Assembly: GCF_000975035.1 (NCBI RefSeq)
Contig: NZ_BBRA01000001.1
Location: forward strand, 682,001 to 746,000
Direction of reading: 5' to 3'
DNA: 64,000 bases
DNA from: Demequina flava
GTDB lineage: Bacteria; Actinomycetota; Actinomycetes; Actinomycetales; Demequinaceae
Part shown: piece by piece, positions 5,755 through 39,588 of the stretch
How the letters are laid out: every line of letters begins with the position of its first letter
Position numbering within the stretch: position 1 is the stretch's first letter
Notes under the pieces: generated by a model
What the model was told of the DNA's origin: nothing
Database searches by the model: none
What the model saw: only the letters and a program-made list of their open reading frames with translations
Program-made: the position numbers and the translations under genes

Positions 5755-5814
5755 CGATTTCGGGACATCAGTGCTCAATGTGAACGTTCCGCGGGCGCTG
5801 GTGTCCCAAAATCG
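5755..5814. repeat. Hairpin repeat family A, copy 1
   Basis: The 46-nt core (5762-5807) begins GGGACATCAGTGC and ends GCGCTGGTGTCCC. These arms pair with one or two wobble positions. Outer bases CGATTT (5755-5760) and AAATCG (5809-5814) extend the stem. The inner block CAATGTGAACGTTCCGCGGGC (about 5775-5795) is identical in copy 2 at 6862-6907. It lies just past the 3' end of the AbiEi/DUF559 gene. It may terminate transcription, but identity of the loop suggests a dispersed element. Confidence 0.75.
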
Positions 5815-5827
5815 CGAGGAAGAAGGA

Positions 5828-6736
5828 TCAGGAGCGCCGTTCGAGCACCTCGATCACGCGGCGTCGACACCACGCCGGCCGCTTGGTGAGGTCTCGCCAT
5901 CCAAAACGGAGGGTCGTGTACCCTGCCGCGGCGAGGTCAATATCGCGCTCATGGTCAGCCGATTGCGCTGTCCGGGACTCGTGATACCGCGCGCCATCGA
6001 GTTCAACGATGACCTTCTTCTTGCGGTGCAGCATGTCCGGACGCACCCGCCTGTGTCCAAGGTCGAGCGTGGCCTGCCACTCAAACTCGTCAAACGGCGG
6101 CCTCACAAATGTTTCCTCCTGAGCGATGCGTTCCAGCGGGGTCGTCGCACCGGCCTCGCACGCGTCGATAAGTCTCAGAAGTTCCGCCCGTCCGGGCAGT
6201 CGGGGTGACACCTCCATAATCCGCCGCAGGTATTCGAGCCCGAAAGCGCGCGCCCAGAATGCCTCGTAGAAGATGTTGCGCCGTGCCTGCGGCGGGGAGG
6301 TCCGCCAAGCGTCAACCAGCGCCCACGCCGTTGGCACCGTGCGCACACCCTGGGCGTACCCTTCCGTCTCCGGGACGATCCCCTGAATGCACGCGACCCA
6401 GTCTCGCGCGCGAGGTCTGAAGCCGGACGCGACCCGGATGCTCGCCAACGACGGCGCTGGCAACTGGGGGCGATGGAGGTGGAGTGCTAGCCCACCGGTC
6501 ACGAGACCCGCCGGGTGCCAGAGGTTGAGCCCGAGCGCCCACACGATTGGATCCGCGCGAAGCTCTCGCCCGCAGTACACGTCCGGAAGCAGGCGAACCA
6601 CGGTCCCCGCGGCCACCTCGCCGTCGAGCGCACGCCTGCCCCAGCGCTGAACTGCCTGCTCGCGGGAGAGCACCCGTGGTTCATGGTTGAGAAACGCCTC
6701 GAGTGAGATGGGCTTGGGACGACTGGCGAGCGGCAC
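5828..6736 (-). CDS. AbiEi-like N-terminal domain fused to a DUF559 nuclease-like domain
   Basis: From the GTG at 6734-6736, preceded by GAGGTGAG, this is a 302-residue protein. The first 100 residues (LSREQAVQRWGRRALDGEV, then LPDVYCGRELRADP) resemble the winged-helix region of AbiEi-type antitoxins. The C-terminus is DUF559-like (Vsr/PD-(D/E)XK fold), with RRVRPDM, IVELDGARYHE, ERDIDLAAAGYTTLRFGWRDL. The aspartates and ELDG are the expected metal-site residues. No toxin gene or methylase lies beside it. The frame stays open another 65 codons upstream but runs into a hairpin repeat, so I reject the longer start. It is bracketed by repeat copies at 5762 and 6862. Confidence 0.75.
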   Translation of the reverse strand: MPLASRPKPISLEAFLNHEPRVLSREQAVQRWGRRALDGEVAAGTVVRLLPDVYCGRELRADPIVWALGLNLWHPAGLVTGGLALHLHRPQLPAPSLASIRVASGFRPRARDWVACIQGIVPETEGYAQGVRTVPTAWALVDAWRTSPPQARRNIFYEAFWARAFGLEYLRRIMEVSPRLPGRAELLRLIDACEAGATTPLERIAQEETFVRPPFDEFEWQATLDLGHRRVRPDMLHRKKKVIVELDGARYHESRTAQSADHERDIDLAAAGYTTLRFGWRDLTKRPAWCRRRVIEVLERRS

Positions 6737-6853
6737 GGTTCTCACCTCAACGCACGGGCGCAGCGGCCGCCCGTGCAGCACGTGGCTCAGTGGACTACAC
6801 CCACAACTCGGCACGTTGGGGACGCCGCCGCCTACGCCAACAAAAGACCTCGG

Positions 6854-6915
6854 CCGACACTGGGACACCAGCGCACAATGTGAACGTTCCGCGGGCACCC
6901 ATGTCCCAAAGTCGG
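6854..6915. repeat. Hairpin repeat family A, copy 2
   Basis: The 46-nt core is 6862-6907, the same length as copy 1 at 5762-5807. It begins GGGACACCAGCGC and ends GCACCCATGTCCC, with outer CCGAC/GTCGG bases extending the stem. The central 21 bases are identical to copy 1. It lies upstream of the AbiEi/DUF559 gene, so the two copies flank that gene in the same orientation. Confidence 0.75.
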
Positions 6916-6959
6916 GAAAAGGAGGGGGCACGAGGGTGGGAAGCAGGAGGGAAAAGCAA

Positions 6960-6995
6960 ACGGCCCGCCTCCCCCGACGAGGGGAAGCGGGCCGT
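6960..6995 (-). terminator. Rho-independent terminator of sucCD
   Basis: The arms ACGGCCCGC (6960-6968) and GCGGGCCGT (6987-6995) pair perfectly. C-rich and G-rich inner bases extend the stem. On the minus strand the stem is followed by a T-rich stretch, just downstream of the sucD stop. Confidence 0.8.
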
Positions 6996-7012
6996 CCAGC
7001 GGACTAAGCGAC

Positions 7013-39459: not shown

Positions 39460-39516
39460 CCCCGCCCGACCGTCGCCGCGCACCGCGCACACCCCCGTGC
39501 GCCATCACGCGTTATT

Positions 39517-39562
39517 GGGACATGAGCGCCCGAAACATGTCGATTCCGTGCGCTCATGTCCT
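39517..39562. repeat. Hairpin repeat family A, copy 3
   Basis: GGACATGAGCGC (39518-39529) pairs perfectly with GCGCTCATGTCC (39550-39561) around a 20-base loop. The element is 46 nt like the copies at 5762 and 6862. It shares their GGGACA...TGTCC ends but has a diverged loop. It lies between the converging ABC-F and ABC-2 permease genes and could terminate both. Confidence 0.65.
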
Positions 39563-39588
39563 ATTGTCGAGGCGGTCTAAGCGGCGGA

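Follow-up and report, generated by a model that had tools for sequence, protein, structure and literature searches.

Lineage-specific palindromes flanking a DUF559 nuclease gene of Demequina: a probable partnership resembling REPIN/RAYT

Introduction

The closest described counterparts of the locus considered here are the RAYT genes and their REP palindromes. According to PMC2817692, the RAYT gene is delimited by palindromes of its own, cognate copies are found between other genes, gene and repeat evolve jointly, and the gene changes unusually fast; REPs usually exceed 100 copies per genome, and the origin of the RAYTs is placed in the Gammaproteobacteria. AbiEi antitoxins are described as binding inverted repeats and regulating their own expression (PMC7319586), and new insertions of IS1272 as targeting and replacing inverted repeats (PMC5678879).

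The present analysis concerns a 64,000-nt stretch of the Demequina flava genome (the window throughout), in which an initial annotation had described an AbiEi/DUF559 gene between two near-identical 46-nt hairpins and had offered two readings of these, as mobilisation ends resembling those of REP/MITE-type cassettes or as regulatory stems. The Pfam entry DUF559 denotes a domain of unknown function and, to our knowledge, no role has been assigned to such DUF559 proteins. A link between DUF559 or AbiEi-like nucleases and palindromic repeats did not appear among the matches listed by a literature search, subscription papers and bioRxiv lying mostly outside its coverage. We propose, with a probability of roughly 0.6, that the locus is one member of a nuclease–palindrome partnership working like REPIN/RAYT, with a nuclease that recognises its cognate palindromes and probably also multiplies them. 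Throughout, G000 denotes the window's own genome, other G numbers the compared genomes and L numbers loci.

Results and discussion

A nuclease gene between two palindromes

The two 46-nt cores (Table 1) stand in direct orientation, each with GGGACA at its start and TGTCCC at its end, and share an identical 21-base centre; the initial annotation had placed, bounded and oriented them correctly, and only its 'near-identical' was slightly strong, 39 of the 46 positions being identical and 7 different. Fold energies of 61-nt segments are -34.4 kcal/mol (z -6.0) for the first copy and -21.8 (z -1.9) for the second on the plus strand, and -26.0 (z -4.4) and -28.7 (z -2.9), respectively, on the minus strand. 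The gene between them, which is adjoined by a DUF6350 gene and by sucD, identified by its succinyl-CoA ligase domains, has a long open frame on the minus strand (5828-6931) that does run into the upstream copy, as had been pointed out. Homology begins at residue 50 or later of this frame in 76 of 90 homologous loci, and the likely start, judged from the sequence, is a GTG preceded by GAGGTGAG; the overlap of frame and palindrome is therefore probably fortuitous. Given this start, the upstream palindrome ends 125 nt before the gene, and the downstream one begins 20 nt past the stop codon. Near the upstream palindrome, sucD is followed by a strong intrinsic terminator (6957-6998) with a 19-pair stem and a T-rich tail.

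Table 1. Coordinates of the palindromes and of the predicted nuclease gene in the window
Feature	Position	Strand	Basis and remarks
Cognate palindrome, downstream copy	5762..5807	.	Paired arms reach ~5755-5814; R2 match G000:C3:687759-687810
Cognate palindrome, upstream copy	6862..6907	.	R2 match G000:C3:688859-688910
AbiEi-like/DUF559 (Vsr-type) nuclease gene, predicted	5828..6736	-	302 aa; probable GTG start 6734-6736; called from Pfam DUF559, an AlphaFold2 model, AbiEi and Vsr/I-Bth0305I fold matches and seven invariant polar residues
Solo palindrome, same family	39514..39565	.	GGGACATGAGCGCCCG...CATGTCC; R2 match G000:C3:721514-721565

The window protein matches Pfam DUF559 (PF04480, E 1.4e-7), which bears out one half of its initial designation; the AbiEi half has no Pfam match and is recognised by fold. 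In the AlphaFold2 model (pLDDT 93), residues 6-193 match the AbiEi antitoxin 6y8q (Z 10.6, rmsd 5.9 over 182 residues), and the last ~100 residues match Vsr-like nucleases, namely 3hrl (Z 13.2), I-Bth0305I 3r3p (Z 12.7) and Vsr 1cw0 (Z 9.8). Of four proteins scanned with the PADLOC AbiEi models, three match and the window protein does not. In the nuclease half, E201, D233, E244, D246, H251, D260 and R263 are invariant among 48 proteins, as expected if the nuclease is a working one, and their conservation suggests that they are catalytic. A Pfam scan of the window protein found neither Y1_Tnp nor any other transposase domain. Similar proteins occur, at E 1e-20, in 82 of the 197 genomes sampled from the class Actinomycetes.

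The N-terminal half of the protein thus has the fold of the antitoxin of the type IV toxin–antitoxin system AbiE, but no AbiEii toxin gene adjoins it between its DUF6350 and sucD neighbours, a nuclease domain is fused to it, and the repeats lie on both sides of the gene as well as elsewhere. With Vsr and I-Bth0305I it shares the fold of the catalytic domain and conserved acidic and histidine residues, but differs from them in the fused AbiEi-like half and in that palindromes flank the gene, instead of the gene interrupting a single site. I-Bth0305I is known as an EDxHD homing endonuclease. The hallmark of a homing endonuclease is a gene that interrupts the cleaved site, the empty allele keeping that site intact; the sucD sites that are empty of the gene in two close species hold solo palindromes of other types.

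A dispersed palindrome population

Searched with a 46-position pattern, 17 positions of which were N, and with up to three mismatches, the 2.55-Mb genome yields just the two window copies. The reading of a two-copy repeat, derived from exact and three-mismatch patterns, was discarded once a covariance model that tolerates variation in type had been applied. This model, R2, was built from 41 gene-flanking palindromes and returned 42 rows in the window's genome, which correspond to at least 22 sites, part of the first-look candidates having been scored. Four of these sites flank two nuclease genes, that of the window and the one at G000:C3:1750270-1751184, and the other 18 are solo, all more than 5 kb from the listed places of nuclease homologues; a short one, at C2:321487, may be an ordinary terminator. 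Most sites are of a type like that of the window gene (GGGACATGAGTGCCCG) or of one like that of the second gene (GCAGGTGCTGAGTGCCC). The solo palindrome in the window, 33 kb from the nuclease gene, lies between convergent genes and has no nuclease gene adjoining it. The initial annotation had called for such a genome-wide search and had set many copies away from accessory genes against its own proposal; most copies in the genome are indeed solo, but the solo copies belong to the system. Its comparison with REP/MITE elements pointed in the right direction, the palindromes being a dispersed family tied to the gene.

R2 matches occur in 42 of 44 Demequina genomes and, in a sample of the order, in 6 of 6 Demequina but 4 of 73 other genomes, the latter with 1-2 rows each. 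The sites read number 22 in G000, 41 in G019, 16 in G008 and 13 in G040, all lower bounds, three further sites of G040 and at least one of G019 falling outside the reading. By their surroundings, for which genes were called with a simple script, 75 solo sites comprise 32 between convergent genes, 31 between tandem genes, 4 between divergent genes, 7 in a called frame and 1 undetermined; measured against how often each kind of junction occurs along 400 kb of the window's own genome, this is an excess of convergent (p 3e-8) and a deficit of divergent positions (p 0.004).

Duplex DNA or RNA hairpin

Such a preference of solo copies for 3' ends, together with the strength of the stems, is what one would see if the palindromes were bidirectional terminators or RNA-stability hairpins that surround the gene by chance. 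Against this, a terminator scan limited to loops of 3-8 called neither window palindrome, its output consisting of the sucD terminator (twice, nested) and one 5-pair match at 5995-6011; by reading, no T tract stands directly behind either arm, and an Rfam search of the palindromes gave no match. The alignment of the 41 gene-flanking palindromes, which come from 21 genes, contains 173 cells in which both sides of a pair have changed, against a shuffled mean of 60.1 (0 of 500 shuffles reach 173), and the count falls to 17-46 when the partner is shifted by 1-3 columns; this covariation is partly built in, the sequences having been chosen as palindromes, and the number of pairs with a both-sides change (16 of 19) is ordinary by shuffling (mean 14.5; reached by 81 of 500). 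Mismatches between the arms comprise 37 G-T and 42 A-C, that is, show no wobble bias. As a selected one-strand RNA hairpin should give an excess of G-T, these counts favour recognition of the palindromes as DNA. In addition, palindrome type matches the gene, as shown below, which terminators would not need. We accordingly regard terminators or RNA-stability hairpins as a very improbable explanation, and the regulatory stems suggested at the outset, lacking a terminator call, an Rfam match and a wobble bias, were not retained.

Matched flanks around related genes

Homologues of the window protein were found in 34 of the 39 genomes searched, the window's own included. Homologous places number 2-7 in each of 24 other Demequina genomes and six in the window's own, where the proteins at the other places are 27-46% identical to that of the window. 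Among 90 loci read, the 85 Demequina genes entered a flank test, the five loci outside the genus being excluded; the two flanks of each gene were compared with each other, in direct and inverted orientation, and flanks of genes from other neighbourhoods served as the control. Matched flanks were recorded for 52 of the 85 genes, compared to 50 of 6,460 mismatched pairs, at a threshold of 17.5 (the 99th percentile of controls), and scores above 20 for 47 of the 85 and 13 of the 6,460, respectively. The other 33 genes fall below the threshold, some of them with palindromes discernible by eye. In close relatives the palindromes measure ~44-53 nt, whereas distant relatives often have two ~16-nt boxes per flank, with one flank inverted relative to the other; in several relatives the stop codon ends 8-17 nt into the downstream palindrome. 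The nuclease genes of L036 and L046, which share neighbours and belong to two species, have a strongly paired sequence of a different kind, CTGCACCGACGGAGACGTTTGA...CGTCCCGTCGGT, at a long distance upstream (L036:62-120 and L046:184-250, in gene orientation).

The same arrangement extends beyond the genus. From the 29 best places among many more, with the gene start set 900 nt before the stop, L361, L372 and L375 were dropped for want of a frame with the expected motif; 15 of the 26 readable Actinomycetes loci score above 20, against 8 of 650 control pairs, 7 of these 8 coming from a few mutually similar loci. At L366, L368, L374 and others of these non-Demequina loci, the genes are bracketed by gene-specific palindromes or inverted repeats. 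G204, which belongs to another genus, has six occurrences of the palindrome arm of its gene, two of them in the gene's own flanks; the arm pattern has no match in seven congeners, and a reversed control pattern matches once in G204.

Palindrome type often follows the gene

Across 15 genes, distances between proteins correlate with distances between palindromes (Mantel r 0.645; 0 of 20,000 permutations), although the correlation could partly reflect the shared descent of gene and flanks. By eye, the types differ in a block of about six base pairs, and the outer and inner blocks look shared. Correspondence between solo palindromes and resident genes is complete in G008, where every site is of one type, that of gene L021. 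G019 has three types, two of which match its genes L048 and L011; the third (GCGAGGTGCTGAGTGCCCG), read at 12 sites that include L267, L268, L263, L265, L234, L131, L225, L229 and others, has no matching nuclease gene among the G019 flanks compared, and genes with this type occur in G002, G021 and G022. One of the two main types of G040 is that of gene L200, and none of the flanks compared belongs to a cognate gene of the other. Gene L210 of G040 lies between copies of a different inverted repeat, AAATGGCTCCATTTCGCTG, which also occurs solo at other junctions of that genome.

When each of 79 solo sites from four genomes was assigned to the nearest of 23 genes, 41 picked a gene of their own genome, where ~6 would be expected at random (13 of 13 in G008, 8 of 18 in G000, 15 of 36 in G019 and 5 of 12 in G040); the score was revised once, from whole sequences (37 of 79) to arms only (41 of 79). 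Many of the misses are near-ties between sister types or concern types without a gene.

Possible copying of palindromes

Three pairs of palindromes, all with sharp edges, look like copies. In G047:C14, the two members are separated by 7 kb and agree at every base for 96 nt, outside which their sequences are unrelated; the members of a direct pair in G008:C10 (L282:1122-2609) are identical over 62 nt and likewise unrelated beyond, and an inverted pair in G019:C23 (L281:1385-3156), identical over 59 nt, encloses DUF3800 and VanZ-like genes. Between the two G008:C10 copies lies one gene, of 426 aa and with no match in Pfam, an arrangement like that of the window with another gene inside. Such identical pairs are not numerous, and local duplication may account for them.

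The sharp edges of such units bear on what we consider the best rival explanation, namely, that the palindromes form an operator network of AbiEi type, in which binding of the AbiEi-like half to its own flanks and to the dispersed sites serves repression or insulation, and the nuclease half has a separate task, for instance, defence against phage DNA. The AbiEi fold of the N-terminal half, the PADLOC matches in the three proteins other than that of the window and the behaviour of AbiEi antitoxins on inverted repeats noted above (PMC7319586) are all in line with operators, but sharp-edged copied units speak for copying, the repeat stands behind the gene and not just in front of it, and a distribution with 32 of 75 solo sites convergent and 4 divergent is the opposite of operator placement. 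We therefore hold an operator network to be unlikely and prefer the reading in which a nuclease is partnered with palindromes that it probably multiplies.

Shared sites, empty sites and possible inversion

The initial annotation had also proposed comparing the locus in relatives. At the sucD junction the gene is indeed present in some species and absent from others, and the solo palindromes that stand there in two of the species without the gene are of other types. G055 has a 61% identical gene at the same junction with the same kind of palindrome, one centre being inverted, and G048 has another DUF559 gene, beyond the tblastn reach of the window protein; G040 and G008 have no gene and one palindrome each, and G015 and several others, by eye, neither gene nor palindrome. 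In a comparison with 115 loci, made with unequal flanks (~1,560 nt per side for 25 loci and ~500 for 90), the best match of the sucD-junction palindromes of G040 and G008 was a nuclease gene of the same genome (L200 and L213, respectively; L213 and L057 are the same gene). These varied junctions imply that both the gene and the palindrome are gained and lost here. Differing palindrome types at one intergenic site across Demequina species recall the repeat replacement described for IS1272, but that element is a conventional IS, encoding a transposase and present in at least 13 copies per genome (PMC5678879), whereas the window protein has no Pfam transposase domain. Along 400 kb compared between G000 and G040, the junction orthologous to a solo site of the family holds a palindrome of another type in three of six cases, and the corresponding counts are 5 of 19 for other convergent junctions (Fisher p 0.34 versus the solo sites) and 9 of 81 for other junctions; with a fourth, imperfect case and the sucD site, this is suggestive, and we do not claim an insertion hotspot.

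Grouped by neighbours, the 85 genes form 26 clusters, that is, 11 of 2-19 loci, which hold 70 genes, and 15 singletons. Each of the 11 has neighbours common to at least one other Demequina species, and the window gene counts as a singleton because G055, with its gene at the same place, is outside the set. In the largest cluster (19 loci, including L037, L052, L053 and L093) the gene has one orientation in 9 species and the other in 10, with no contradiction; a simple explanation is inversion between flanking repeats in inverted orientation, independent insertions being a possible alternative. Mean p-distances of DUF559 proteins at two shared sites are 0.43 (8 of 13 loci) and 0.57 (14 of 19), compared to 0.10 and 0.11 for SucD in the same genomes, and the two distances correlate with r -0.42 (n=8) and r 0.19 (n=14). 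As gene distance does not track that of sucD, simple vertical descent at the shared sites is without support; fast evolution and replacement of alleles by recombination would both account for the divergence.

These sites also bear on the possibility that the locus is an IS-like mobile cassette, with the palindromes as transposon ends and the nuclease as the transposase of its own gene. Orientation flips at shared sites, a stop codon near or inside the downstream repeat in several relatives and inverted flanks scoring above 24 at 37 of 90 loci are as such a cassette would have them, the last figure being set against 150 of 8,010 control pairs in a first control that was found to be inflated by neighbour-sharing loci and was replaced by a comparison omitting such pairs. 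Conversely, the genome has no second near-identical copy, its homologues being only 27-46% identical, and 70 of the 85 genes fall into the groups with common neighbours; as most gene sites are thus common to several species, a mobile gene cassette is without support. The window protein had no match at E 1e-5 in a plasmid collection or in a phage collection, and a plasmid- or phage-borne gene was set aside as a candidate. The cassette is in our view improbable, and the mobilisation ends envisaged initially are, in that form, not supported.

A proposed partnership resembling REPIN/RAYT

In Demequina, lineage-specific palindromes flank an AbiEi-like/Vsr-type gene, related types are scattered through the genomes, mostly after the 3' ends of genes, and gene and palindrome covary. 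The likeness to REPIN/RAYT accordingly extends to two cognate palindromes that delimit the gene (in the window and for the 52 Demequina genes with matched flanks), sometimes right at the stop codon, to cognate copies scattered between genes, to the coevolution of gene and repeat and to a fast-changing gene. The Demequina system differs in that its enzyme is an AbiEi-like/Vsr-type nuclease rather than a Y1 HUH transposase, that its single unit is itself a palindrome, that its lower-bound counts of 13-41 sites read per genome are below the copy numbers of classical REPs and that it is found in Actinomycetes. The Y1 transposase (PF01797) is absent from eight Demequina genomes, a search whose control gave matches in 6 of 14; a RAYT elsewhere in the genome was set aside as the driver on this ground. 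Because the enzyme is unrelated and these eight genomes lack a Y1 transposase, we classify the system as REPIN/RAYT-like and not as a member of that group.

The nuclease, we infer, binds, cuts and copies its palindromes. The cognate palindrome, as duplex or extruded DNA, would be recognised by the AbiEi-like half, which would probably sit on the two inverted arms as a dimer. The nuclease half would cut at the palindrome or next to it, and repair of the cut ends, or their copying, would then spread and homogenise the palindrome population in trans. Flanking copies would keep the gene and its sites linked, and recombination between them could invert the gene where they are inverted or, where they are direct, possibly delete it and leave a solo palindrome behind.

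Concluding remarks

More tentatively, and with odds that we put somewhat below even, the locus might represent an undescribed, class-wide selfish or domesticated element of Actinomycetes, whose AbiEi-like/Vsr-type nucleases would each use cleavage and repair to copy a palindrome population of their own around the chromosome. Palindrome specificity would change along with the protein, recombination of the flanks would invert or remove the gene, and the whole would amount to a transposase-free lifestyle invented independently of REPIN/RAYT. Cognate palindrome populations give DUF559-type nucleases, which are common in Actinomycetes, a testable function, and the recognition code likewise becomes testable, each protein lineage having its own palindrome type. 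If the proposed partnership is real, a second, unrelated enzyme would stand behind REP-like repeats, and such partnerships would have arisen more than once.
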